A DNA stretch of 37,316 nt from Candidatus Zixiibacteriota bacterium (lineage in GTDB: Bacteria > Zixibacteria > MSB-5A5 > GN15 > FEB-12), in assembly GCA_020344395.1 (NCBI GenBank), contig CP070824.1:2227470-2264785 (forward strand). Direction: 5' to 3'. The translations under genes and the position numbers were made by a program. The stretch's first letter is position 1. Each line of letters starts with the position of its first letter. The notes beneath the pieces are model-generated. The model saw only the letters and a list, made by a program, of their open reading frames with translations, did no database searches and had not been told where the DNA came from. Of the stretch, positions 916 through 30,953 are shown piece by piece.

Positions 916-1194
916 CCTGAAAGGGTCGGCGACGATGAAGTGGGTTTTGGGTTTCCCGTGCGATCAACTCTCGGAGTCCTGTCATCCTCCGGAAAACCGG
1001 GCTAATTGGAGCTTACGCGTATCACTGCGGTTACCTGATGGTCCAAGGTACCTCCAGTGTAGGCATAATCCCTTGCCGTGTCGAACCTTAAATCAGCTCT
1101 GAACGGCTCAAGTCGGCCGGGTCGCCCATTCGCATGCGGTGGGTTCCTCGCGTCCCATTACGAATATCTATAATCACATCCGTCCCGTCTTAAG
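916..1194. other. Intergenic region between tRNA-Ser and FN3-dockerin gene
   Basis: The whole gene-free stretch from the tRNA 3' end to the next ATG is about 330 bp. Apart from the promoter at its low-coordinate end I see no gene or RNA. No intrinsic terminator is evident after the tRNA. A short CCGG-TTTT-CCGG inverted repeat on the minus strand near 990-1002 is too small to interpret. Confidence 0.4.
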
Positions 1195-1280
1195 CGGAGA
1201 GGCAGGGATTCGAACCCTGGATAGGGGCTTCCTATACACGCTTTCCAGGCGTGCGCCTTAAACCACTCGGCCACCTCTCC
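1195..1280 (-). tRNA. tRNA-Ser (anticodon GGA)
   Basis: Read on the minus strand from 1280. The acceptor stem GGAGAGG pairs with CCTCTCC, followed by discriminator G at 1195. The D stem is GCC/GGC. The anticodon arm is CACGC-CTGGAAA-GCGTG with anticodon GGA. A long variable arm (TAGG-AAG-CCCTA type) marks class II. The T arm is CAGGG-TTCGAAT-CCCTG. The length of 86 nt fits tRNA-Ser. CCA is not encoded (the next bases are CTT), so it must be added after transcription. GGA reads UCC and UCU codons. The gene stands alone between fapA and the FN3-dockerin gene. Confidence 0.97.
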
Positions 1281-1369: not shown

Positions 1370-2782
1370 TCAGTCACCCTTGAAAGCCGAGATCATGATA
1401 TTAGAGCCTTCAAGACTCACTTTGCAGCAAGTCTGATCCTCGAGAATCTCACGGTAGAGAATGCCAAAATGAGCCACCGAGCCTGCATAAAGGGTATCTT
1501 CCACAATAATGCAGGAATCCCGATATTCCTTCATCTTCTCTTCAACTTCGAGTTTCTGCTTTTCCAGGGCTTCAATGTTTCCCGGCAGCCCTTCCTTAAA
1601 AGCCTCCAGTTTGGCCAGCGCCTGCTCTTTATCTGGAGGGAGGCTGTCACCGGCCTGAAGCTTGTACAGCGCCTGGAGTGCATCTTTCACCCTTTGGCCG
1701 TCAGCCTGGAGACGGGCTATCTCGTTGGATATCTGGCGATGCCGTTTCATCAACTTGTGGTTATAGGCGACAAAGAGGTCGGTCTTGGTCCCGGCCTCCG
1801 AACCCGCCACCGATGTCCTTATCGCCTTACCGGCGCGAGTTACCCCGCCAACGATCTTGCCGCGCCGACCTTTAATATGAATCTTCTCTTTCGCCGTAGC
1901 CTGGCAGTTGATAAGTTCTCCGCCAACATGCAGATCGTTGCCGGCAATGATTTTCTGACCCTCGGCATACTTCAACGTAATGTCACCATCGGCGCGCAAT
2001 TGCCCCTGACCGTTGCCGAAGAATCCACCCTTAATCATGATATTGCCCTTGGTGTAAATATCCGCGTCCTCGACGTTTCCGGACACCTCAAGGTCGCCAT
2101 CAATCCTTAATTCAAACCCCGCTTTGATACACCCGGCGACCCGAACTGAACCTCTGCAATCGAGGTTGCCGACGCTAAAATCCACATCCCCCCGAACCGT
2201 AAGAACATCGTTGACTGATACCTTGCCGTTCTGGAAAAGTATAGCGCCGCTGGTGGCGGCGCGAAGTTCCAGCCCATCATCGGACAGGACGGTCTTCGCC
2301 CCGTACTTGATGGGGATATCCCGACCCGCGGGCCCCGAAATTTCCTTACCGTAAACATTCCTGCCCGGGACACCCTCAGTCGGCGGAATCTTATGAGCGA
2401 GAACTTTACCTTCCTCGATATTCTGTATGAAATTGATGTCGTGGTAATCGATCCGCCCGTCCTCATCTTCCTTGGGAGTGTGTTTGTCCAGGGTGTCAAA
2501 ATGATAGACTATGGTTGACGAGTTCCCTCGCTTGGGCTTAACGCCTTCAGCAGCTCTGAGCGGTGTATTGAAGGCGCGCTCATCAACCGCTTTCTTGATA
2601 CCCTCTTCGTCGATTCCGTATTTGACCCCTGCCGCCTCGAGGGCCTTCATGACGTCCTCGAATGTGGGATCGGATTCCTCCGAAGACGGATTACGCAGGA
2701 GCAGTGAGGCAACCATTGAGTCTTTTGAGATCGTGACCTTAACTAGCTCACGGGTACCGGTCTGTGTGCCCGTACTGGTCAT
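1370..2782 (-). CDS. fapA: FapA / DUF342 family protein
   Basis: This 470-residue protein matches the DUF342 (FapA, flagellar assembly protein A) family. An N-terminal alpha/beta domain (about residues 1-110) is followed by the family core with G-V-P-G-R-N-V-Y-G and many G-x-V-x-V-x-G-D-V turns (about 130-330), which form a single-stranded beta-helix of polymer-forming type. A charged coiled coil follows (about 340-425), then a short beta tail. Family members influence flagellation or cell-surface behaviour and in some bacteria bind other regulators; the molecular role is poorly defined. The ATG is preceded by GGGGAG at 5 nt. The gene is the last of a run of motility-regulation genes and lies 14 nt after a CheY-like regulator, which fits a partner of that response regulator. 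The family call is secure; the function is inferred from context. Confidence 0.85.
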   Translation of the reverse strand: MTSTGTQTGTRELVKVTISKDSMVASLLLRNPSSEESDPTFEDVMKALEAAGVKYGIDEEGIKKAVDERAFNTPLRAAEGVKPKRGNSSTIVYHFDTLDKHTPKEDEDGRIDYHDINFIQNIEEGKVLAHKIPPTEGVPGRNVYGKEISGPAGRDIPIKYGAKTVLSDDGLELRAATSGAILFQNGKVSVNDVLTVRGDVDFSVGNLDCRGSVRVAGCIKAGFELRIDGDLEVSGNVEDADIYTKGNIMIKGGFFGNGQGQLRADGDITLKYAEGQKIIAGNDLHVGGELINCQATAKEKIHIKGRRGKIVGGVTRAGKAIRTSVAGSEAGTKTDLFVAYNHKLMKRHRQISNEIARLQADGQRVKDALQALYKLQAGDSLPPDKEQALAKLEAFKEGLPGNIEALEKQKLEVEEKMKEYRDSCIIVEDTLYAGSVAHFGILYREILEDQTCCKVSLEGSNIMISAFKGD

Positions 2783-2796
2783 CCGCGCTCCCCTTC

Positions 2797-3201
2797 CTAA
2801 GCTCGCTCCGTGTCCTCTTTCGGTGCGGATAGAAGGCGCCGGTAGGCACGTTCCACTACTAAGGAAATTTCGTGGCTCTTGAATGGCTTGGTAATATACT
2901 CGTCTGCTCCAAGCAGCAGGGCATCCTTGACCGTATATGTGTCACCATAGGCCGTCATCATGATAACGCCCACGCCCGGATAGTCTTTCTTGATGACGCG
3001 CAGAAGGTCAAATCCGCCCATACCGGGCATCTTCATGTCCGTAATCACGAGCTGTGGGCTCTCGTTTTTCAGCACTTCCAGAGCCTCTTCCCCGTCTCCG
3101 GCCAGCAATACGCGATACCCGTCGCGAGAAAGAATCTTGTCCAGCAGATCTCTCATGCCGACTTCATCGTCCACGATAAGTATGGAAAGAAGATTCTCCA
3201 T
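2797..3201 (-). CDS. Single-domain response regulator (CheY-like)
   Basis: This 134-residue stand-alone receiver domain has the acidic pocket D11-D12, phosphoacceptor D55 (T-D-M-K-M-P-G), switch T83 (M-M-T-A-Y), and K105-P106 in the T-K-P-F motif. No output domain follows the receiver, so it must act by protein contact, as CheY does. The T-A-Y and A-D-E-Y-I-T-K-P-F pattern is closer to receivers of NtrC/sporulation type than to classic chemotaxis CheY. It is followed after 14 nt by fapA and preceded by a second receiver gene, so a phosphorelay or a FapA partner are the likely roles. All catalytic residues are present. Confidence 0.88.
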   Translation of the reverse strand: MENLLSILIVDDEVGMRDLLDKILSRDGYRVLLAGDGEEALEVLKNESPQLVITDMKMPGMGGFDLLRVIKKDYPGVGVIMMTAYGDTYTVKDALLLGADEYITKPFKSHEISLVVERAYRRLLSAPKEDTERA

Positions 3202-3274
3202 TGCCCTCAGTCGTCCCTCATCTTATCACCTGGAAGTTAATCGATTCAATCAGGGCGTTCACCCGCTATCCCTG

Positions 3275-3691
3275 CTAACCCAGCAGGGTTGCGTTGAGCG
3301 CCCCTATGAATTCATCCAGCTTGATCGGTTTGTACACTACCTTGCAAGCACCGAGCACGCCGGCTTGATTGACCAGTTTCTCGGTGGCATTTCCGGTGAT
3401 GACTACGATGGGCGTACGAGGCGACAACTCCTTGATCCGATCAAGGGCATCCAGCCCCGACATCTCCGGCATCACCAGATCCATTGTCACCAGGTCGTAG
3501 GTCGTCTTGCTGACCAGCCCCACGGCTTCAGTTCCGCTGGAGGCCATGTCAACTTCGAAGGCGTCCGTCAACTCGCAGAAATCTCTAAATACGTCGCGCA
3601 CCCAGGGCTCGTCATCCACAATGAGGATTTTGAACGGCTGGCCTTTTTCACGGGCCTTCCGACTCAGGTTTTCAAGATCATTATCTGTCAT
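3275..3691 (-). CDS. Single-domain response regulator
   Basis: This 138-residue receiver domain carries D26-D27, phosphoacceptor D71 (M-D-L-V-M-P), T99 (V-I-T-G-N), and K121-P122. A helical N-terminal tail of about 18 residues precedes the domain and there is no output domain. I chose the ATG at 3691. A TTG at 3760 would add 23 residues, but it lies within a few bases of the start implied by the candidate FliA -10 element at 3764-3771. It is the second of two receivers following a GAF/kinase-like gene. The V-I-T-G-N-A motif is typical of receivers paired with hybrid or NtrB-type kinases. The partner is unknown. Confidence 0.85.
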   Translation of the reverse strand: MTDNDLENLSRKAREKGQPFKILIVDDEPWVRDVFRDFCELTDAFEVDMASSGTEAVGLVSKTTYDLVTMDLVMPEMSGLDALDRIKELSPRTPIVVITGNATEKLVNQAGVLGACKVVYKPIKLDEFIGALNATLLG

Positions 3692-3763
3692 ATGCTTACT
3701 CACTTGGCGGGCGTTGCAATCCGCTTGTTTTGGCGGTGAGCCAAATCCGGCTCCCCTCAAGGT

Positions 3764-3771
3764 TTATCGGC
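3764..3771 (-). promoter_or_regulatory. Candidate FliA (sigma-28) -10 element
   Basis: The minus strand reads GCCGATAA, a perfect match to the sigma-28 -10 consensus, in the gap of about 158 bp before the second receiver gene. The -35 position (15 nt upstream) reads GAGG in place of TAAA, so this half is not supported. fliA lies upstream in the same gene run, making a FliA-dependent internal promoter plausible but unproven. Confidence 0.3.
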
Positions 3772-3849
3772 AATCGGGGCCGCTTCCTCAATCCGCTGAA
3801 TACACCAATTCGCATGGCCGACCGGGATTCTCGCACCTGGCGCATAGAA

Positions 3850-4218
3850 TCACGCCATCAGGTCCCTGAGTTGAGAGAGAGAGCCCAGGACCCTTGAGCA
3901 TTGCTCCAGTATACCGTGAAGCTTCACCTCAACATGATCCTTGGCGAGTCTTCCTGAGGGCACTTCGTAGGCCATAACCTCCTTATGCTGGGCCGCATTG
4001 AGGATGGTCGTAACCTCCTGGACCACTTTCACCGTCCCGTTTATCAGTCTGACAAAATCAGGTTCCAGGACGACGAATTTACCGCTGGTATCCTTCTGCT
4101 TAAACCTGGCCAGCAGGATAGCGAGGTTGACAGCCAGTGATTTGACCTCATCATTGAGCCGGTCAACTTCGCAGATGATCTGCGGAACCTGGTCTTTTGT
4201 TTCATTGTTCTCAGACAT
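3850..4218 (-). CDS. Small all-helical protein of unknown function
   Basis: I do not recognise this 122-residue protein. It is predicted to be mostly alpha-helical, with heptad-like stretches (about residues 15-40, 58-78, 95-121) and no signal peptide or membrane segment. Met, Cys and His are few and no catalytic motif is visible. The ATG follows GGTGAG. It lies 39 nt after the GAF/kinase-like gene and before two receiver genes, so a helical-bundle partner for one of them (phosphotransfer or phosphatase scaffold) is possible, but there is no direct sequence support. Confidence 0.7.
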   Translation of the reverse strand: MSENNETKDQVPQIICEVDRLNDEVKSLAVNLAILLARFKQKDTSGKFVVLEPDFVRLINGTVKVVQEVTTILNAAQHKEVMAYEVPSGRLAKDHVEVKLHGILEQCSRVLGSLSQLRDLMA

Positions 4219-4257
4219 TCTATCTCACCGATTCACCGAACCGCTGTGTATCCGCCT

Positions 4258-5118
4258 CTAACCGGGCGATTTAGCTCCTGTCTCCTGAGCTTGCCGACCG
4301 GATGACATCACCGAGCCTATCCCGAGCATACGGCGGTTTACCTCGGTGATGGCGAGAGCCGCGGCCTCAATACGTTTCAGACGAGTGAGGGTTTTCTGAT
4401 CATAACCCTTGAGTTGAATCCGCAGACATTGAGCGCTGCCCACGATCACCTCCAGAAGATTGCAGGCCTCATGAAAGGCCGCTGAGGCCAGTTCATCCGC
4501 TGCAACCACCCGCTCTCCAGGGACAACCATACATCGAATCGCATCGAAATCCTGCTTAGTCTTGTCCAGCTCGAGTTCCAGGGCAGATATTATCTGTTCG
4601 TAGATCAGCCGCTCCATCGAAATACTGAGTTGATCCGCCACTATCGCCAGCAGTCCGAGATGATGATCGGCAAGGCCCTGCGGCCGTCGGCAGCCCAAAT
4701 TCAGTACTCCAATAAGCCGCTCATCCCTGACCAGGGGATAAGAGAGAACGCATGCGAAATCGACTTCCGGATCGAAATTGCTCTTCTTAGTGCGATCGGA
4801 CAGCAGGATTGGCTTGCGGCTGCGTGCCGTCCACCCGGACAGACCATCCCCTAACTTCAGCCTGAAATTCTCGAGTATCTCGATCCGAGAACCGAGCGTT
4901 GCCCGTTCCTCCAAACGTTTGCCCGCAGAATCGACAAGGAACAACGTAGCCGCGTCGAATGGCACCAACTGCTGCACAAGGCCGAGCACATCCCGGTAAA
5001 CGGTTCCGGATGCCCGGTCTCTGCGGCATCGTGCTGAAATCTCGGCCAGCAGACCGATCTTCTTCCAGAAATCCGGCGATTCGATGTTACCTTCCGGCCG
5101 CACTTTGTCAGCGTACAA
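4258..5118 (-). CDS. GAF-domain protein with DHp-like end lacking a kinase ATPase domain
   Basis: This 286-residue soluble protein starts with a helix, then a GAF domain (about residues 35-172; V-P-F-D-A-A-T-L-F-L start, later G-D-G-L-S-G-W and L-I-G-V-L-N-L). A coiled linker (170-195) leads to a segment (about 207-265) resembling the dimerisation/phosphotransfer helices of NtrB-like histidine kinases: A-A-F-H216-E-A-C-N-L-L, then A-Q-C-L and a long second helix. The protein stops there, with no N, G1 or G2 boxes of a catalytic ATPase domain. The start is TTG, one base after the stop of the preceding gene, with AGAGG at 8 nt; no in-frame ATG occurs before the GAF domain ends. It may sense a ligand and pass or receive phosphate for the two receivers downstream. 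The GAF call is secure; the DHp call is moderate. Confidence 0.8.
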   Translation of the reverse strand: MYADKVRPEGNIESPDFWKKIGLLAEISARCRRDRASGTVYRDVLGLVQQLVPFDAATLFLVDSAGKRLEERATLGSRIEILENFRLKLGDGLSGWTARSRKPILLSDRTKKSNFDPEVDFACVLSYPLVRDERLIGVLNLGCRRPQGLADHHLGLLAIVADQLSISMERLIYEQIISALELELDKTKQDFDAIRCMVVPGERVVAADELASAAFHEACNLLEVIVGSAQCLRIQLKGYDQKTLTRLKRIEAAALAITEVNRRMLGIGSVMSSGRQAQETGAKSPG

Positions 5119-5119
5119 G

Positions 5120-5731
5120 TTACCTGCCTCTCATCAGCATTTTCGTTCGCGTGGCCAGCCTCTCGGCCAGACGATTCTCAAGACGATCGAACAGATCCAA
5201 CTTTTCGGACGCCCGCAGGACCAGATCGGGATCATCACGGTTGTTATCAGGATCACCCTGAATCACCCGTCTGGCACAACATATTTCCCGAAACGGCTCG
5301 GCCGCGAGCATTCGTCCTCGTTGCAGATCGAGGAGGCGATATTCCCCCTGTACAACACCCACTGTCTCCCAGCGGTGCAACAGCAGCGGAATGCCTGTCT
5401 TCTTCTGGATTTCCAGCCTTTCCTTGGCCACCTGAACGACCAGCAGATAGCGCATCCCCAGTTCTCTGCCCCAGTCAATCAGACTATCCACATCATAAGC
5501 CGCGTGCGGGAAGGGCGGGGTTTCCTCACCCAGTCTCTCGGACAACACGACCCTCAGATCTCGATTGCGTGTGAGATGCTGAGCGACTTTCTGGGTGATG
5601 GCAGACTCCATCCAAGGCAATGCCGGTTGCTCAACGTGCAACAGCACGGTTCGAGTGTTGGACAACAGATTACCGCCGCCGCAGATAAGGATGGCCAGAA
5701 GCAGCCTGATTATCATGCGCCTGTTTACCAT
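5120..5731 (-). CDS. Secreted or membrane-anchored protein of unknown function
   Basis: This 203-residue protein has a signal peptide or N-terminal anchor: N-R-R-M then a hydrophobic run at residues 7-24, without a good lipobox. The rest is alpha/beta in pattern: a strand (T-V-L-L-H-V), an amphipathic helix, then about residues 78-100 the pattern D-x-x-x-L-I-D-W-G-R-E-L-G-M-R-Y-L-L-V-V-Q-V. This recalls the helix-strand unit of CsgG/FlgO-like envelope proteins, which use a similar L-G-x-x-Y-L-V-x-G motif. That resemblance is weak and is my inference. It sits 9 nt after a PilZ gene and 1 nt before the GAF gene, suggesting an envelope component of the same regulatory unit. Confidence 0.7.
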   Translation of the reverse strand: MVNRRMIIRLLLAILICGGGNLLSNTRTVLLHVEQPALPWMESAITQKVAQHLTRNRDLRVVLSERLGEETPPFPHAAYDVDSLIDWGRELGMRYLLVVQVAKERLEIQKKTGIPLLLHRWETVGVVQGEYRLLDLQRGRMLAAEPFREICCARRVIQGDPDNNRDDPDLVLRASEKLDLFDRLENRLAERLATRTKMLMRGR

Positions 5732-5740
5732 GGCCCTTAC

Positions 5741-6253
5741 CTACTCCGCCGGCTGGCGATACATGTATTGTTTTAGGACTCTGCGCACCGATCCGTCGAA
5801 ATCCGTATAATTGCCCGCAATCAGATCGATTTCCGCCTTACTCAACATATCCTCCAGCCGCTCCCGGGACAGGAACTCAATGCCGGTCAGGCAACCTTCC
5901 TCTGTCTGTTCCACTCGCTTGGTAAGTCCCAGAACGTCGTCGAGGGGTTCAATATCCTGAAGGATGAAGTGCATCGACACAATATCGCCGCAGCAAATGG
6001 CTTCATTGAGGTCCACCAACACTCCGCCGGCTGAAATATTTAGCACGGTACCGGCGATGACCCGATCATTCCCGTCCGGCCAAAAGCCGCCATGGGTATC
6101 CTTAAGGGTCTGCAGAGACATCGGGGTCGATATCTCGAGCCGAATGAAGCGCCTCTTGTTGCGCCGCTCCACTTTGAACGGACGGCGAACATCCGTGTCG
6201 CCGGTGGCAGTGTCGACCTCACTGATTAACTTGACCTTCGAATCTGGTTTCAT
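5741..6253 (-). CDS. PilZ-domain protein (c-di-GMP receptor), third of three
   Basis: This 170-residue protein consists of a short charged N-terminus and one PilZ domain. Both c-di-GMP-binding motifs are intact: R34-x3-R38 (R-R-F-I-R) and N72-I-S-x-x-G77 (N-I-S-A-G-G). The domain closes with T-G-I-E-F-L, followed by a helical tail. I chose the ATG at 6253 because it overlaps the upstream stop codon by 4 bp and has GGGAG at 6 nt; an ATG at 6298 with GGAAG is an alternative. Unlike its two upstream neighbours it has no YcgR-type N-terminal domain, so it may be a bare receptor or adaptor. Location after fliA suggests motor or surface-behaviour control. Confidence 0.88.
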   Translation of the reverse strand: MKPDSKVKLISEVDTATGDTDVRRPFKVERRNKRRFIRLEISTPMSLQTLKDTHGGFWPDGNDRVIAGTVLNISAGGVLVDLNEAICCGDIVSMHFILQDIEPLDDVLGLTKRVEQTEEGCLTGIEFLSRERLEDMLSKAEIDLIAGNYTDFDGSVRRVLKQYMYRQPAE

Positions 6254-7026
6254 TGCTTGCTCCCATATGCAAATTGACTTTCTTTGTCCGGGTTCCATAA
6301 TTGTAGCTTCCGGTTCAAGCGGCTGCGGCTCTGAAGAGTGTACCGAAAGACCGACTGCGGCAGCAATTGTCTGGCCGCCCTCGGCAGAAGCCTCAGGCTC
6401 TCTTCTCTCACCAGAAACTCAATGCCCACCATGAACTGACCGTCCTCATCCTGAAAACTATGGCATACTCTGCCCAGAACCATCGGCGGCAGGAACGCCT
6501 GTTCCCAGTCGACATTGATCAGCAGGTACACTCCCTCCTGGAGGCAAGTCGGCACCTTCATGAGCAACCCGCCGCTTGACAGATTGACGCTGTCGGTGGC
6601 CACCCACCGCAAACTCGACAGGCTCCGACGGGAATGCGTGGCAACGGGGAAAGCCGCCATACTTACCGAACGCTTCAGGTCAAGACGAAGGAACCGTCGC
6701 TGAGAAAGGGGTGTGGCCTTCTGGTTCAGTATAAAATTGCACGTGCCGCCCAGGCTGCGCTTCAATCTCGCCCGTACCGATACTTTCTGCCCTTTGTAGG
6801 AAAACCGTAGCACGACGGACTGCAGATTTGCAAGGTTACTGAGCGGTCCCTTACGATCTCCGCGCTCGACCGTAATCTGATGCGGTTGCACCGAAATTAC
6901 CCGGCCTGTCAGACTCTTGCCCTGAAATTGCTCCGAGAATATGGCAATCTCGGTCCCGACCAGGCAGGAAAGATCGAATGCCTGTGTTGCCACAAACCTC
7001 CCTGATGAGGAGCCTTCATGTGCCAT
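6250..7026 (-). CDS. YcgR-like PilZ protein (flagellar brake type), second of three
   Basis: This 258-residue protein has two domains. Residues 16-100 form a beta-rich YcgR-N-like domain (V-G-T-E-I-A-I-F, then L-x-G-R-V-I-S-V, and V-V-L-R-F-S-Y-K-G). Residues 108-235 form a PilZ domain with R110-x3-R114 (R-R-F-L-R) and N148-L-S-S-G-G153, closing with V-G-I-E-F-L-V. Both c-di-GMP motifs are intact. The ATG at 7026 lies one base after the upstream stop and has AAGGA at 10 nt; an ATG at 7056 lacks a ribosome-binding site. YcgR family members bind c-di-GMP and slow the flagellar motor. Here the gene is downstream of fliA, which fits that role, but motor contact is inferred. Confidence 0.9.
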   Translation of the reverse strand: MAHEGSSSGRFVATQAFDLSCLVGTEIAIFSEQFQGKSLTGRVISVQPHQITVERGDRKGPLSNLANLQSVVLRFSYKGQKVSVRARLKRSLGGTCNFILNQKATPLSQRRFLRLDLKRSVSMAAFPVATHSRRSLSSLRWVATDSVNLSSGGLLMKVPTCLQEGVYLLINVDWEQAFLPPMVLGRVCHSFQDEDGQFMVGIEFLVREESLRLLPRAARQLLPQSVFRYTLQSRSRLNRKLQLWNPDKESQFAYGSKQ

Positions 7027-7027
7027 A

Positions 7028-7768
7028 TCAGAACAGTCCTTTCTTTCGCATCTCATTCTGGTCAGAAAGAATGCGAGCGGCTAACTCCGTCCGCTTAGGT
7101 CTGGTGAACTCCTTGACTGCCTGAGGCAGGAGACGAAGAGTCTCTTTCGGGAAGAGCCTGGCCAGTCTTTCCGCCAGGATGAATTCGACTCCAGCCTGCC
7201 TCACCTCGCCCTGATCAACCGTCCTTTGACATATGGCTGCCATTATCCCGGGCAATCCCTGACCTTCAACGAACTCCAGCCTCACCAACAGCAGGGAGTT
7301 CACGTTTATCCTGTCCTGAACTGTTATCAGGGCTCCGCCCCCGCTGATGTTTACACAGCGCGATTCCAACCAGATAAGATCACTCTTCAGCTCCTGCTGC
7401 GGCGCCACCGGCGTGTAAAGAGCTTTCGTGTCCGTACCGGTTCGGACGAACAGGCGCCGCTGAACCCGTTGAAGTCTGGTCGGAGGGCTCAACACCATCT
7501 GCCGGCCATGTTTGAGCCGGCGCCTGATAATCCTCGAATGAAATTGATAAGCAGCATCCTCTCGCGTGAAGGTTACCACCGTCGGTATCTTATCCCTGAG
7601 GCGCGTGTGCCCGCGAACGAATTCAGGCTGGGTGATGACTATGCCGCCATTGACGAAATCTTCGATGCGTGCCTCGTAGATTCCTGCCGCCTTATCCTCA
7701 CCTACGAGCAACGTTATCTTCTCATGCACTCTGAAGAGGTGTTCGGTCTTTTGATCCAGGGCGCGCAT
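7028..7768 (-). CDS. YcgR-like PilZ protein (flagellar brake type), first of three
   Basis: This 246-residue protein has a YcgR-N-like beta domain (about residues 10-98: K-I-T-L-L-V-G, Y-E-A-R-I-E-D, F-H-S-R-I-I-R) and a PilZ domain (about 100-215). The binding motifs R105-x3-R109 (R-R-L-F-V-R) and N140-I-S-G-G-G145 are intact, and A-G-V-E-F-I-L closes the barrel. A C-terminal helix with L-P-K-E-T-L-R-L-L-P is shared in spirit with the second PilZ protein (L-L-P-R-A-A-R-Q-L-L-P), so these two look like diverged duplicates. It is preceded at 17 nt by a DUF2225 gene. Confidence 0.9.
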   Translation of the reverse strand: MRALDQKTEHLFRVHEKITLLVGEDKAAGIYEARIEDFVNGGIVITQPEFVRGHTRLRDKIPTVVTFTREDAAYQFHSRIIRRRLKHGRQMVLSPPTRLQRVQRRLFVRTGTDTKALYTPVAPQQELKSDLIWLESRCVNISGGGALITVQDRINVNSLLLVRLEFVEGQGLPGIMAAICQRTVDQGEVRQAGVEFILAERLARLFPKETLRLLPQAVKEFTRPKRTELAARILSDQNEMRKKGLF

Positions 7769-7785
7769 TTACCATCCCGCCAATA

Positions 7786-8964
7786 CTATGACTTCGTGGC
7801 GGCAGCCAGGTTAACCCGGCCTTGCTCGACAGCCAGTTCAAGAATCTTGCGTGCCAGCGCCGTCCGTGATTGATCGCTTCTATTCTGGTAGATAAAATCC
7901 TGCCCTGTCTTGATGGTGCTCGCGAAGAATCGCTTGGCCTCATCGTAGTCACCAATCCGCCGCGAAAGCTCGGCGATCATGTACGAGGCCTGGATCTGCT
8001 GCGGACCGGGAGCGATATCGCGTCCGGCCGAGAAGGCCTTCTTGTAGTGAAACGCCGCCTTCTGGAGTGCCTCGTGCTCGTTTGTGACTATCTCCGGCCA
8101 TGCCTTGCGCAGATCGCCCAGAAACTTCCCAAACGATTCGTGGCTGCCGAAACCGGTCCCGCTGTCCCCATCGCCGGAGCCCAGTGTGGCCTGCTTGTAT
8201 TCCTCGATCAGACTACCCAGGCTGGACAACTTGCCTCGCGTTTCTTCGATACAACCCGACAGGCCGTCCAGTGATTCGCGGTACCGATCTTGAAAAGCCA
8301 GCATTTCCGATTTCAGATCAGCCGCGATTTGATCCGTCTCGATATGTGATCTGACCTGTTGCTCGAATGTCTTCAGTTCAGTCTCGACAGAGTCCACCAC
8401 CTGGTTCAGTTGGCCGTATTCGTTGTCCAGCTCATGCATCAATCCGCTTACATGAAGGTGTTGAGGGTTATCACCCTTTTGGAGATCGCGATATACCCAG
8501 CCTATCCGCAGATAGAACCTGCCGAGATCCAGTTCGTTGGCATGCTCGGCCAGGAGTTCATCATAAATGGCCAGATGAAGCTTCAGAACCGCCGATTCGT
8601 TGGGATAGCGGTGTATGTCGATTGCCTCGCCGAACTGCTTGATGATCGACTCGGCGGATGACAATTGCTCCAGGTGTTTGTCCTTCACCTGCTTGAGTCG
8701 ATAAGTGCGGAAGGTGTTGTCACTCTTCCAGTCCTTGTACTTGCTGGTGAGTTCGCGCGTGTAGAAGCAGTTGCTACAGGTAGCGGTGAAGAAGACCAGT
8801 GGGTTAAATGCCTGGTAGCGGGGAGTTCGCCAGGTTATGCCCATGGGACTAAAATCGGAATCCCTTCCATCTTCAGTATATGCCCCAACTCGCACCATCT
8901 CAAACTCGTTGATTGTCCTGCATATCGGACACTCAATCTTCAGCAATAAGAACGGATTATCCAT
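7786..8964 (-). CDS. DUF2225 family protein with zinc ribbon and TPR-like helices
   Basis: This 392-residue cytoplasmic protein has an N-terminal zinc-ribbon-like unit (C12-x2-C15 and C63-x2-C66) around the DUF2225 core (R-D-S-D-F, then F-N-P-L-V-F-F-T-A-T-C-S-N-C). A helical middle includes a long coiled coil (about residues 185-255), and the C-terminus has TPR-like helix pairs (about 300-365; A-L-Q-K-A-A-F-H-Y-K-K-A). DUF2225 proteins have no assigned biochemical function; TPR parts usually bind proteins. The spacing to the PilZ genes (17 nt) and the upstream small membrane gene (25 nt) indicates one transcription unit. A scaffold role in the c-di-GMP module is my inference. Confidence 0.82.
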   Translation of the reverse strand: MDNPFLLLKIECPICRTINEFEMVRVGAYTEDGRDSDFSPMGITWRTPRYQAFNPLVFFTATCSNCFYTRELTSKYKDWKSDNTFRTYRLKQVKDKHLEQLSSAESIIKQFGEAIDIHRYPNESAVLKLHLAIYDELLAEHANELDLGRFYLRIGWVYRDLQKGDNPQHLHVSGLMHELDNEYGQLNQVVDSVETELKTFEQQVRSHIETDQIAADLKSEMLAFQDRYRESLDGLSGCIEETRGKLSSLGSLIEEYKQATLGSGDGDSGTGFGSHESFGKFLGDLRKAWPEIVTNEHEALQKAAFHYKKAFSAGRDIAPGPQQIQASYMIAELSRRIGDYDEAKRFFASTIKTGQDFIYQNRSDQSRTALARKILELAVEQGRVNLAAATKS

Positions 8965-8989
8965 CAGTCAAATCTCCAATTGTATAGCG

Positions 8990-9424
8990 CTAGTTGCGAC
9001 TCAGAAAGGCCAGTTCACCCTCGGTTATCGGTAAAGTACGCCTGATTCTTTCCGCAGGCACACCGGTGGACAGCATTTTGCGAGCCAGACGAACCGTCTC
9101 CGCACGATCCCGGCGGCCCGACGCAGACCCTCCGTCATACTCACTCTCCTGCGGAGTAGCCGGCGATCCAGCATCACCGGAGGAAGTATCGAAGTGCAGG
9201 TATTCGCCCCCTGTAGCCTTGATGGATCGTGGCTGCTTCGCGTCGGATTTTCCCGATGCCACATCCGGTTTGACGGCCAACGACTTATGCTGTTGCGTTT
9301 TCTTCTTTCGACGGAACGCGGTAAAAATGAGCGCCCAGAGGAACCCTGCGGCAACGTATCCCAGCACGTTCAGTCCTGTGTCTACGAATCTTTCGCTGAA
9401 AACATCCATGTTAAAGACTTCCAT
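8990..9424 (-). CDS. Small single-pass membrane protein, DUF2802-like C-terminus
   Basis: This 144-residue protein has one transmembrane segment (about residues 17-37) followed by a basic stop-transfer stretch (R-R-K-K-K). A low-complexity linker of about 65 residues leads to a C-terminal helix-turn-helix-like unit (R-A-E-T-V-R-L-A-R-K-M-L, then P-I-T-E-G-E-L-A-F-L). The last part resembles the DUF2802-type module found near fliA in other flagellar operons. The ATG lies close after AGGTAGGA. The function is unknown; position and architecture suggest a membrane-tethered cytoplasmic adaptor. Confidence 0.7.
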   Translation of the reverse strand: MEVFNMDVFSERFVDTGLNVLGYVAAGFLWALIFTAFRRKKKTQQHKSLAVKPDVASGKSDAKQPRSIKATGGEYLHFDTSSGDAGSPATPQESEYDGGSASGRRDRAETVRLARKMLSTGVPAERIRRTLPITEGELAFLSRN

Positions 9425-9450: not shown

Positions 9451-9774
9451 TCATGCCTTCAGGTCGACATGGGTGGTGTCGTCGACATCACCGTCGTCCG
9501 GAGGCAAAGCTCTCTTTTGCCCTGGCGAATCGTCCACATTACCCTCTGCATCTTCCCCTGTCTGTGCGTCCCGGGGAGACTGATGATCTTCTCCGAGCAC
9601 CACTTCATCCTGCATCTGCTCTCTCTTCCGCTTGGTCAGATCATCCTCCATCTTCTCCTTGAGGGCTCGCGACGACTGTCTCTGTTTCTCGCGCTCCGAC
9701 TCCTGCATCGGGTTGACTTTGCCGGGCGGTTGATATGAAATCGCGTCCGTTCCATCCAGCGGCGTATCCACCAT
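9451..9774 (-). CDS. Small charged hypothetical protein
   Basis: This 107-residue hydrophilic protein is unrecognised. Residues about 23-60 are a highly charged probable coiled coil (E-R-E-K-Q-R-Q, K-E-K-M-E-D-D-L-T-K-R-K-R-E). The remainder is acidic and disorder-prone, ending in an Asp-rich stretch. It has no signal peptide or membrane segment. It sits 30 nt after fliA and 26 nt before the DUF2802-like membrane gene, consistent with co-transcription. Small charged proteins are common at this place in flagellar operons, but I cannot assign a role. Confidence 0.65.
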   Translation of the reverse strand: MVDTPLDGTDAISYQPPGKVNPMQESEREKQRQSSRALKEKMEDDLTKRKREQMQDEVVLGEDHQSPRDAQTGEDAEGNVDDSPGQKRALPPDDGDVDDTTHVDLKA

Positions 9775-9804: not shown

Positions 9805-10680
9805 CTATCCCGTCAGGGCAAACTTTTCCCTGACCATATTTCTGAGTTTCATCACTGCTCTGGTGTGAATCTGCGATACCCGAGATTCGGAAATCGACAT
9901 CACCTCACCGATTTCCTTGAGCGTCAGCTCCTCGAAGTAATACAGCGCAATCACCAGCTTTTCCTGTTCCGTCAGACGATCGATGGCCACCACTAGGTAT
10001 GAACGTAACTCACCTCGCTCGATTTCACCGAGGATGCTCCCGGCCACTGTGTCACTGACCGTTTCAATGCGCGGAACCTGACGATTGTCGTCCTCGGGAT
10101 AGACAATTTCGTCCAGGGACAGCATGTTGGTGCTGGAGACATCGTCGATGGCCAGGTGAAGCTCACGGTCTGACATATCAAGTTGCTTTGCCAACTCTCT
10201 TCTCTCCGGCGCGCGACCCAGCTCATTCTCCAGAACGGTCATGGCCCTGTCAATCTCTCGTGACTTGGCCCGGGTCGACCTTGGCACCCAGTCCAGAGCG
10301 CGCAATTCGTCAAGTATGGCACCCCTAATCCTGGGCACGGCGTAGGTCTCGAACTTGACTCCACGATCGGGATCAAAATGCCCGAAGGCCTCGATCAAAC
10401 CGATCACACCGGTATTGATCAGATCGGTCAGTTCTACCGATCTGGGAAAACCCATGGCCATCCGCGTAGCCACGTTCCGTACCAGTGGGAGGTATTTGTT
10501 CAGAAGTGTCTGGCGACTTTCTTCCGTGCCGTAACGCTGGTAACGAATCCAGTCGTGTCTGGATACGTCCCATCTCTTTCTTCGCTTCGTTGCCTGTGGT
10601 TTGTCCGTCGTGATGGTTGATTCTTTCGCTTCAGCCATTCGTCCACGTCTCCCGAGGGGTTTTTCTAGCGTGCTAACCAT
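9805..10680 (-). CDS. fliA: RNA polymerase sigma factor FliA (sigma-28)
   Basis: This 291-residue sigma-70-family factor is of FliA/WhiG type and directs transcription of late flagellar genes. It has region 2 (L-P-L-V-R-N-V-A, D-L-I-N-T-G-V-I-G-L-I-E-A, F-E-T-Y-A-V-P-R-I-R-G-A-I-L-D-E-L-R), region 3 (W-V-P-R-S-T-R) and region 4 with the helix-turn-helix L-T-L-K-E-I-G-E-V-M-S-I-S-E-S-R-V-S-Q-I-H. Region 1.1 is absent, as expected. A 40-residue basic N-terminal tail precedes region 2. The ATG at 10680 has AAGGGA at about 11 nt; an ATG at 10638 with GGGAG is an alternative. flhG ends 7 nt upstream, the common flhA-flhF-flhG-fliA order. No flgM anti-sigma gene is in the window. Confidence 0.97.
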   Translation of the reverse strand: MVSTLEKPLGRRGRMAEAKESTITTDKPQATKRRKRWDVSRHDWIRYQRYGTEESRQTLLNKYLPLVRNVATRMAMGFPRSVELTDLINTGVIGLIEAFGHFDPDRGVKFETYAVPRIRGAILDELRALDWVPRSTRAKSREIDRAMTVLENELGRAPERRELAKQLDMSDRELHLAIDDVSSTNMLSLDEIVYPEDDNRQVPRIETVSDTVAGSILGEIERGELRSYLVVAIDRLTEQEKLVIALYYFEELTLKEIGEVMSISESRVSQIHTRAVMKLRNMVREKFALTG

Positions 10681-28277: not shown

Positions 28278-30953
28278 CTACGGACACGGCGCGAGCGGAA
28301 CATACGATATGAAAAGGTAGTCGATCAACATCGTCAGATCGCCAATATCCTGCCCGGCCTCACCATTCAAGTTTGCTTCATCAGGACAGCAGAAACAGGG
28401 ACTCTCCGGATCGATGAACAGGTAGCTGATGAAACACGTAAGGTCCCCTATATCAACACTTTCTTCGGCATCACAGTTGACATTTCCGGTCACACCGACA
28501 CAACAACTCTCGCATTCATCACCGATTCCGTCATCATCACTGTCAGCCTGGTCGGGGTTATACACATCCGGGCAGTTATCACAGACGTTACCGACGCTAT
28601 CGAGGTCGTCATCCGCCTGCTCGGGGTTTAAAGTATCGCTACAGTTGTCGAATAGCCCCATCGGACAGGATGTATTTTCCTGGTCGGAATCTCCCCAACC
28701 GTCGCCGTCAGAATCAGTGCATGGATCACAGACATCGCCGACCCCGTCACCATCCGCATCCGCCTGATCCGGATTGAAGATACCATCGCAATTATCGCGC
28801 AGGCCGCCTGTCGGGCAGAACCAGTTGCTGAATGCCGTATCTCCCCACCCGTCACCGTCCGTGTCGGTGCACGGATCGCAGATATCCCCAATTCCGTCAG
28901 CATCCGTATCAGTCGTATCATCGCTGGCCACTCCGGGGCAGTTGTCTTCCGGACATGTGTTTGCCGGATAACCCGGATCACCGTAGCCGTCGCTATCGCT
29001 ATCAGTACAAACGTCACAACTGTCGCCGATACCATCCTCGTCTTCATCTGTCTGGCTCGGATTCACGACGCCGTAGCAGTTGTCGCACGAATCACCGACA
29101 CCATCCGAATCTGCATCGGGTTGGCCCGGATCGAACACCAGGTCGCACACATCGATATCACCGCAGATACCGTCATCGTCGATATCATTATCCTGATCAT
29201 ATGGACACTCGTCGCAGATATCGCCGTGACCATCGCCGTCGGCATCAGTTTGATCAGGATTCGGCACCATGGGGCAATTGTCAAGCAGATCACAGATCAG
29301 ATCGCTGTCGGCATCGGTGCAATCCCAGCAGTTAACACCTCTCGCTCCAATGAGTGTGCCGCACTGATTGAATATAGAGCCCGGAGCACACGGCGAGCCG
29401 GCATCGATGGTGAGATCATGTACCGCTGTATCGCAGAAGAACGGAGTGAGAGACATATTGCCGTCCGTCCAGAGTTGATCGGCGTAACTGCCAATCCAGT
29501 CTCCCCCCGCGTTTCCGTAGATATCACAGCACTCAAGGACAACAACAGTGTGCGCACCTCTCGTGCTTATTGTCGCAATAGCGCCGCCGGATTGACCGTA
29601 GGAGAGAATGCAACCTTTGAGTTCCGCATGCACGCCCTGTACACAGAGAGCACTGCCGCCATAATCAGCTGAGTTATCATAAAAAGTGCAGTTGACCAAC
29701 TGCATATAACCCCAAGAGACAGCACAGACAGCACCGCCGTACTTACTCACGTTACGCACGAAGAGACAACGGGATATTCTGGGGCCGGAGTCAGCACCAG
29801 TCAAAAGCACATCCGCAGGGCCTGAATCATAGCCGGGGAATGAAGGTCGGCCTATGTTGATCGCTCCACCCGGATACTCCGCCCCGTTGTCGACAAACAC
29901 ACAATTCTCGATGGTTGGCGAAGCACTATCAGTTAATATAGCCCCTCCCTCCCAATGGTAGCCATTTTTGATTGTGAAGCCGCTCACGAGCGACGTTGAG
30001 TCCTCGCCTGATACAAACCGAAACGCGCGGTGAAGATCGGTGGAATCTGCCTCACAGTCGATGATTGTCTGCTCGGGACCATTTTCCGACAGGAGAACCA
30101 GGTCCTTTCCGCCGAAATCGAGGTCACGGTTTCCTGGACCCGCATAAGTGCCTGGTCCGATAAGTACGGTGTCGCCGTGACCGAGTGCCGCTGAGTCGAT
30201 TCCCTCCTGTATGGTCTGAAAGTCGCCCGGCACATGTATGGTAACGGGTGGAATTGCGGTACAGCATATGGTCGCCTCAACCAGAAGAGCATCGTCCTCT
30301 CCATACAGGTCGAATAGGGTGCTCCATTCGCTGTCATGAAACGCGCTGGAACGATACTCCCCGGCATGCGGTCCCGTTGCTGAATCAGATATGCACACGA
30401 GCCGGTCGCCGGGCCCTCCAATCATAGTCCAGCCTATATGGAAGTCCTCACCGTCAACGAACGCACGCCCAAAAGCCGAGAAGTCTGCCTCAACCCAATC
30501 AGCAGACGACGGCAACACCTCGTACGGTATATCAACTGAGTCCAGAACCTGACCCGGCAGACCAGTTCCATCATCGGCCCAGACGTATACTCGCATGTCA
30601 GGCGTACCGAGCTTGGAATAGCCGAGCACGAGTATTCGAACAACTTCAAGGCTGCAGACATACCCTGGTTCAGCCGTGAATCGAGTGGCGAAATGGCTGT
30701 TAAGGCTGGATGAGGTTATCTGCCAACCCCAAAACGCAGTCGCAGAATCATCATAGTAGTACTCTATCCAGCAAGTGTCGGCGAAGCTTGCCGGGGAAAC
30801 GCTACCTGTAACGGATGGAAGCGGGGCGTTAACACTTCGGGCGAGGTCCCGGTCAGGCAGTTCGGTAGCGTCTGCTTGCGCGGTCAGACAACATACCACC
30901 GCGATCGTCACGCCTGCGATCACACGGATCAAGCACCTGAGACTCAGGTTCAT
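28278..30953 (-). CDS. Large secreted beta-helix / thrombospondin-3 / dockerin-like protein
   Basis: This 891-residue secreted protein has a signal peptide (about residues 1-28, ending T-A-Q-A-D-A). Residues 58-232 form a beta-sandwich-like adhesion domain. Residues 238-545 show a parallel beta-helix pattern (G-D-F-Q-T-I-Q-E-G-I-D start; I-x-N-C-V-F-V-D-N and L-V-N-C-T-F-Y-D-N rungs). Residues 545-815 are thrombospondin type-3 calcium-binding repeats (D-x-D-x-D-G-x-G-D-x-C-D-x-C). Residues 818-891 hold two dockerin-like segments (D-I-G-D-L-T-x-x-I). GGGAGGG lies 5 nt before the ATG; promoter and hairpin leader precede it. The right-handed helix suggests polysaccharide binding or cleavage, but no catalytic residues are evident. 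The role is unknown; surface display is likely. Confidence 0.88.
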   Translation of the reverse strand: MNLSLRCLIRVIAGVTIAVVCCLTAQADATELPDRDLARSVNAPLPSVTGSVSPASFADTCWIEYYYDDSATAFWGWQITSSSLNSHFATRFTAEPGYVCSLEVVRILVLGYSKLGTPDMRVYVWADDGTGLPGQVLDSVDIPYEVLPSSADWVEADFSAFGRAFVDGEDFHIGWTMIGGPGDRLVCISDSATGPHAGEYRSSAFHDSEWSTLFDLYGEDDALLVEATICCTAIPPVTIHVPGDFQTIQEGIDSAALGHGDTVLIGPGTYAGPGNRDLDFGGKDLVLLSENGPEQTIIDCEADSTDLHRAFRFVSGEDSTSLVSGFTIKNGYHWEGGAILTDSASPTIENCVFVDNGAEYPGGAINIGRPSFPGYDSGPADVLLTGADSGPRISRCLFVRNVSKYGGAVCAVSWGYMQLVNCTFYDNSADYGGSALCVQGVHAELKGCILSYGQSGGAIATISTRGAHTVVVLECCDIYGNAGGDWIGSYADQLWTDGNMSLTPFFCDTAVHDLTIDAGSPCAPGSIFNQCGTLIGARGVNCWDCTDADSDLICDLLDNCPMVPNPDQTDADGDGHGDICDECPYDQDNDIDDDGICGDIDVCDLVFDPGQPDADSDGVGDSCDNCYGVVNPSQTDEDEDGIGDSCDVCTDSDSDGYGDPGYPANTCPEDNCPGVASDDTTDTDADGIGDICDPCTDTDGDGWGDTAFSNWFCPTGGLRDNCDGIFNPDQADADGDGVGDVCDPCTDSDGDGWGDSDQENTSCPMGLFDNCSDTLNPEQADDDLDSVGNVCDNCPDVYNPDQADSDDDGIGDECESCCVGVTGNVNCDAEESVDIGDLTCFISYLFIDPESPCFCCPDEANLNGEAGQDIGDLTMLIDYLFISYVPLAPCP
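28509..29321 (-). repeat. Thrombospondin type-3 repeat-coding region
   Basis: About nine imperfect 27-40-codon units encode Asp/Cys-rich calcium-binding repeats, each with a D-x-D-x-D-G pattern followed by G-D-x-C-D. The DNA repeats are diverged, so they are unlikely to slip often, but unit gain or loss between strains is plausible. Long open frames on the opposite strand here arise from the repeated codon pattern and are not genes. Confidence 0.85.

Follow-up and report, generated by a model that had tools for sequence, protein, structure and literature searches.

We analyzed a 37,316-nucleotide (nt) stretch of DNA (the window; contig CP070824.1, positions 2,227,470 to 2,264,785) from a Candidatus Zixiibacteriota bacterium, the genome of which is a single contig of 3.44 Mb. 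The minus strand of the window carries flhA-flhF-flhG-fliA, followed by o107, o144, DUF2225, PilZ1, PilZ2, PilZ3, secr, GAF-DHp, hel, REC1, REC2, and FapA; between flhA and FapA, neighboring genes are separated by -49 to 89 nt (Table 1). In Zixibacteria, a conserved set of genes for cyclic di-GMP (c-di-GMP) receptors and two-component proteins follows the flagellar sigma factor gene. Given that part of this set still lies beside fliA in lineages without a flagellum, it probably controls something besides swimming. A first-pass annotation, made from the sequence of the window, had listed the genes from DUF2225 to FapA downstream of fliA. All of these were present, in that order and with short gaps, and two more genes (9774-9451 and 9424-8990) were found between fliA and DUF2225. 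The spacing and the conserved order are what suggests cotranscription of the locus.

Table 1. Genes and putative promoter element of the fliA-downstream locus in the window
Feature	Positions	Strand	Evidence and remarks
fliA, sigma-28 family factor; core	9805..10680	(-)	Sigma70 regions 2, 3, and 4, in the expected order; orthologues retained in nonflagellated genomes
o107, small charged protein; flagellum-linked	9451..9774	(-)	No Pfam family above cutoff
o144, small protein with a single hydrophobic N-terminal segment; flagellum-linked	8990..9424	(-)	No family matched
DUF2225 protein, TPR-like C-terminal part; partly core	7786..8964	(-)	PF09986 7e-23
PilZ1, YcgR type (PilZNR + PilZ); flagellum-linked	7028..7768	(-)	PilZ 1.3e-7, PilZNR/YcgR N-domain 5.5e-7 (Pfam)
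PilZ2; flagellum-linked, mainly in the order of the window	6250..7056	(-)	PilZ 8.8e-7 (Pfam)
PilZ3, putative c-di-GMP receptor of the core	5741..6298	(-)	PilZ 1.4e-5 (Pfam); without PilZNR
secr, predicted exported protein, putative FlgT/CsgG/PelC/LptE-like fold; flagellum-linked	5120..5731	(-)	AlphaFold2, Foldseek
GAF-DHp protein, conserved His, without catalytic domain; core	4258..5118	(-)	GAF_2 8e-16 (Pfam)
hel, stand-alone chemoreceptor hairpin-tip homologue; core	3850..4218	(-)	hhalign 97.3%
GCCGATAA, putative sigma-28-type -10 element 5' of REC1	3764..3771	(-)	CGATA in 21/23 equivalent gaps
REC1, stand-alone receiver; flagellum-linked	3275..3760	(-)	Pfam receiver 8e-28; conserved start probably ATG at 3691
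REC2, stand-alone receiver; mostly flagellum-linked	2797..3201	(-)	Pfam receiver 2e-31
FapA (DUF342); flagellum-linked	1370..2782	(-)	PF03961 8e-64; FapA_N 3e-47

The same gene order recurred among related genomes. The arrangement flhA-flhF-flhG-fliA-(o107)-(o144)-DUF2225-PilZ1-PilZ2-PilZ3-secr-GAF-hel-REC1-REC2-FapA was repeated, with losses of single genes, in four families of the order to which the window belongs, and variants of it were present in many families of the class. DUF2225 was found in 59 of 61 relatives. Many relatives carry two further genes between GAF and hel, i.e., a PAS-GAF-HisKA protein of approximately 590 residues and a third receiver (REC3); at this locus, both are absent from the window and from its near relative L035. 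PilZ1 is not at the locus in L055, L062, and L065. In family f2 (L073, L074, L075, L078, and L079), hel and REC1 are separated by a gene with a CheW domain, which often carries a long N-terminal tail rich in lysine; in genome G040 of this family, that gene is the only CheW match of the genome. In families f15 to f17 (L121 to L129), the module is followed by open reading frames with the lengths of flgF, flgG, flgA, flgH, and flgI, a guess made by length and order only. The combination of c-di-GMP receptors, phosphotransfer parts, and an envelope protein at one locus, to which the first-pass annotation drew attention, holds across the phylum. That annotation knew of no described system with this composition, and our literature search likewise found no paper on the locus.

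We then compared genomes with and without flagella. FlhA was found in 105 of the 132 genomes of the phylum. Most of the genomes without FlhA also lacked FliG, including genomes that were 96 to 100% complete, and FliA orthologues (61 to 71% identity) were present in nearly all of these FlhA/FliG-less genomes. When 49 flagellated and 16 nonflagellated loci were compared, the genes fell on two sides. Those that follow flagella were o107 (44/49 flagellated versus 0/16 nonflagellated loci), o144 (35/49 versus 0/16), PilZ1 (39/49 versus 1/16), PilZ2 (31/49 versus 0/16), secr (48/49 versus 0/16), REC1 (36/49 versus 1/16), REC2 (44/49 versus 3/16), and FapA (25/49 versus 0/16). Retained on both sides were PilZ3 (42/49 and 15/16), hel (45/49 and 12/16), DUF2225 (49/49 and 9/16), and GAF-DHp (37/49 and 9/16). 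A nonflagellated locus typically consists of fliA and then PilZ3, usually with hel, REC3, the PAS-GAF sensor, GAF, or DUF2225. The change is visible among the close relatives of family f19, in which flagellated L130 to L132 have o107 and secr, and nonflagellated L144, L148, and L149 have fliA-DUF2225-PilZ3-hel (end to end in L149). Fisher values for the gene-versus-flagellum counts overstate significance because related genomes are not independent; the FliA tree is the better argument. On this tree, the flagellated/nonflagellated label requires 8 changes, at least 5 of which are forced by well-supported branches. The tie to flagella implied in the first-pass annotation was borne out for the extension genes, whereas the core also occurs in nonflagellated relatives, which is one half of what that annotation had said would speak against it (separate transcription together with such an occurrence).

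In the window, all three consecutive PilZ proteins have the intact R-x3-R and N-x-S-x-x-G motifs that had been noted at first pass. Among relatives of the same order, the strict motif was present in 52/52 copies of PilZ3, 34/48 of PilZ1, and 35/46 of PilZ2, and it was also intact in the PilZ3 proteins of most nonflagellated loci. PilZ1 combines PilZNR and PilZ domains (with RxxxR and NxSxxG) as in the YcgR flagellar brakes, while PilZ3 consists of a PilZ domain only, PilZNR not being matched by Pfam. GGDEF proteins were detected in all 18 genomes tested. The motif of RsiG (E-x3-S-x2-R-x3-Q-x3-D) had zero matches in all module families, and an RsiG-like anti-sigma factor in the module was rejected on this basis.

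The two receivers, which had been annotated as lacking an output domain, indeed stand alone; both have the acidic pair, phospho-Asp, Thr, and Lys, and their phosphorylation residues are invariant among relatives. What had been called a kinase fragment is a conserved family of approximately 290 residues without a catalytic domain. The GAF-DHp family has a constant length, a conserved His in 29 of 33 members, and no HATPase, and we rejected a truncated kinase because of the constant length; the window copy had no HisKA match in Pfam. Histidine phosphotransferases such as ChpT and Spo0B have a DHp-like part and no ATP-binding domain. GAF-DHp may resemble them in its DHp-like part with a conserved His and no ATP-binding domain, but differs in carrying a GAF sensor domain, and its phosphotransfer role is putative. 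The PAS-GAF protein of the relatives had a HisKA match in 22 of 22 cases. No HATPase_c match was found for it within the order, and its N, D, and G boxes are degenerate there and in most of the class; complete N, D, and G motifs were found only in the nonflagellated families f13 and f14.

The small helical protein of the first-pass annotation, hel, is more specifically a homologue of the tip of chemoreceptors (methyl-accepting chemotaxis proteins [MCPs]). In profile comparisons by hhalign, hel matched MCP signaling domains at 97.3% (P = 2e-11), and a profile limited to members of the family of the window did so at 88.7%; ten other families of the module, run as controls, remained below 4%. PF00015 matched 16 of 43 hel members, and a PF00015 search of the genomes that was not aimed at hel hit hel loci on its own. 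The protein (122 residues) corresponds to the hairpin tip alone, without the sensor, membrane, and methylation regions of chemoreceptors, and most members have changes at the E385-type Glu and in the GRGF turn. A Foldseek search with hel gave nothing useful. Its earlier candidates, an Hpt or a CheZ protein, were dropped after the MCP match.

For secr, a signal-peptide-like start and a confident AlphaFold2 model (predicted local distance difference test [pLDDT], 93) were obtained. Foldseek related the model to a FlgT/CsgG/PelC/LptE-like fold (E values, 3e-6 to 1e-4), with template modeling (TM) scores of only 0.3 to 0.53, the best (0.53) being to FlgT; no Pfam family was matched. FapA had first been taken for the envelope component. 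Nothing was found in support of this, and secr is the secreted candidate of the locus.

Promoters of the sigma-28 (FliA) family have the form TAAA-N15-GCCGATAA. Our promoter results are motif matches relative to shuffled sequences rather than start-site data. TAAR-N14-16-NNCGATA was present upstream of fliA in 9 of 19 nonflagellated loci (shuffles, 0.09) and in 5 of 18 mostly flagellated loci at the class level (shuffles, 0.25). Within the order of the window, the gap between hel and REC1 contained CGATA in 21 of 23 loci (shuffles, 4.4; maximum, 10; reverse strand, 1), and in the window it contains GCCGATAA. This promoter-like site suggests a second transcript start 5' of REC1. No sigma-28-like site was found upstream of 20 flagellin genes, 10 of which had a sigma-54-like pattern (shuffles, 1.0); RpoN was present in all 20 genomes tested. 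The sigma-54-like sites of the flagellin genes of the phylum (L191 to L210) lie approximately 50 to 60 nt 5' of the start codon. Two other scans of the locus were set aside, i.e., a terminator scan that remained at chance level and a sigma-70 scan that gave 14 promoter-like sites versus 7 expected.

These data are most economically read as a sigma-28 operon that would regulate itself and encode products that sense c-di-GMP and phosphorylation state. We consider it somewhat probable that the locus is such a sigma-28-centered c-di-GMP/phosphotransfer signaling operon, in which a core is joined by a flagellar extension for motor control. The core would comprise FliA and PilZ3, often with DUF2225, GAF-DHp, the PAS-GAF-HisKA sensor, REC3, and hel. 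An RNA polymerase with FliA would transcribe the operon from sigma-28-type promoters, PilZ3 would read c-di-GMP, and the sensor proteins would hand phosphoryl groups, or contacts, to the stand-alone receivers, with hel as a putative coiled-coil docking scaffold. Flagellated lineages would add PilZ1 (YcgR type), PilZ2, the putative FlgT/CsgG-like periplasmic protein, REC1, REC2, and FapA, which may act on the assembly of flagella or on their motor. With the PAS-GAF sensor and REC3 missing, the window would carry a pared-down form of the operon. The receivers of the window would then have to obtain phosphoryl groups from CheA of this genome or from an orphan kinase; alternatively, the sole role of GAF-DHp there may be that of a platform for phosphotransfer or binding.

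Several observations weigh against this operon model. The ATPase motifs of the PAS-GAF sensor are lost in most genomes, which clouds phosphoryl flow there, and a -35 part can be recognized for the REC1 promoter in only 5 of 23 gaps. PilZ3 lacks its motif in L140, L155, and L156, and little remains beside FliA and PilZ3 in families f6, f7, and f8. Moreover, the genomes are metagenome-assembled, and single absences may be assembly gaps. A bolder version, in which the FliA-family factor would be not the flagellin sigma factor but the center of a flagellum-independent program gated by c-di-GMP and a phosphorelay, with PilZ3 controlling FliA and a free chemoreceptor tip scaffolding a CheA-less complex, is tentative, and we think it rather less than likely.

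Could the locus be a flagellar control module only? YcgR-type PilZ brakes, CheY-like receivers, and FlgT-like and FapA proteins would then tune the motor, and the nonflagellated remains would be leftovers. The genes that follow flagella fit this account, as do the position of the module within the flhA-flhF-flhG-fliA operon and the FliW-like remnants retained in families f13 and f14. However, the core is retained in whole nonflagellated families and after several independent losses, with promoter-like sites still present at fliA and the PilZ3 motifs mostly intact, which makes the account doubtful. The FliW-like genes of these two families lie downstream of the module and were named from the sequence alone. 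In genomes with no FlhA or FliG, such genes were noted at L142:5891-6361:-, L143:13868-14389:+, and L155:13199-13690:+.

A variant of chemotaxis, with hel as a receptor remnant and REC1 and REC2 as CheY-like proteins of a complex working with CheA and CheW, appears quite unlikely to us. Some bacteria keep che genes after fliA, as do the polar-flagellum operons of Pseudomonas and Vibrio, where they follow flhF-flhG-fliA. The locus resembles these operons in its post-fliA position, its receivers, its MCP-tip homologue, and the CheW gene within the module of family f2, and a CheB-like gene follows hel in the nonflagellated L145 (6061-6666, minus strand), with a sigma-28-like site 38 nt upstream. 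It differs in that the module of the window has no CheA, CheB, CheR, or CheZ; a canonical chemotaxis operon was rejected for want of CheA. Furthermore, the near-complete genomes G008, G010, G017, G019, and G031 (L057, L035, L051, L043, and L055) have flagellar genes and the module, yet neither CheW/CheA nor an MCP was matched in them. They apparently have flagella without canonical chemotaxis, and the presence of the module in such genomes supports the favored signaling operon. That unrelated genes merely share an operon by history, with no common function, is improbable: members do come and go by lineage (the PAS-GAF sensor and REC3 at the window locus; PilZ1 in L055, L062, and L065), but many families share the tightly spaced order, and the genes that disappear upon flagellum loss do so in consistent sets.

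Beyond the locus, a tRNA-Ser (gga) gene lies immediately 3' of FapA (window 1194-1280, minus strand). Secreted proteins with terminal dockerin-like repeats (IDIADLT.LI..LF) are encoded at 257-862 and 28278-30953 (minus strand), the former with an fn3-like domain slightly under the Pfam cutoff.

Known systems resemble parts of the proposed operon. FlgZ, a PilZ protein, is encoded in a flagellar operon (PMC3913639). PilZ1 is like YcgR/FlgZ in its PilZNR + PilZ architecture and in having its gene in a flagellar operon; the difference is that here three PilZ genes stand in a row, and PilZ3 lacks PilZNR and persists without flagella. WhiG belongs to the FliA family. In the RsiG-WhiG switch, a sigma factor is tied to c-di-GMP, and the type IV pili of Rubrobacter are under the control of this switch (PMC8325347). 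The likeness is a sigma factor linked to c-di-GMP that does not need flagella; unlike that switch, the module has no RsiG motif in any of its proteins, its putative receptor is PilZ, and two-component parts are attached. Nonflagellated Legionella oakridgensis retains FliA and FlgM (PMC5655016). There too sigma-28 outlasted the flagellar regulon, although in one species and as FliA and FlgM, whereas here many families keep a PilZ/two-component operon.

In textbooks, sigma-28 is the sigma factor of late flagellar genes. If true, our reading would separate the genes of a flagellar regulatory operon that serve the flagellum from those that serve something else. It would also give an example of a chemoreceptor tip that exists as a protein in its own right, in some cases in genomes that lack CheA.

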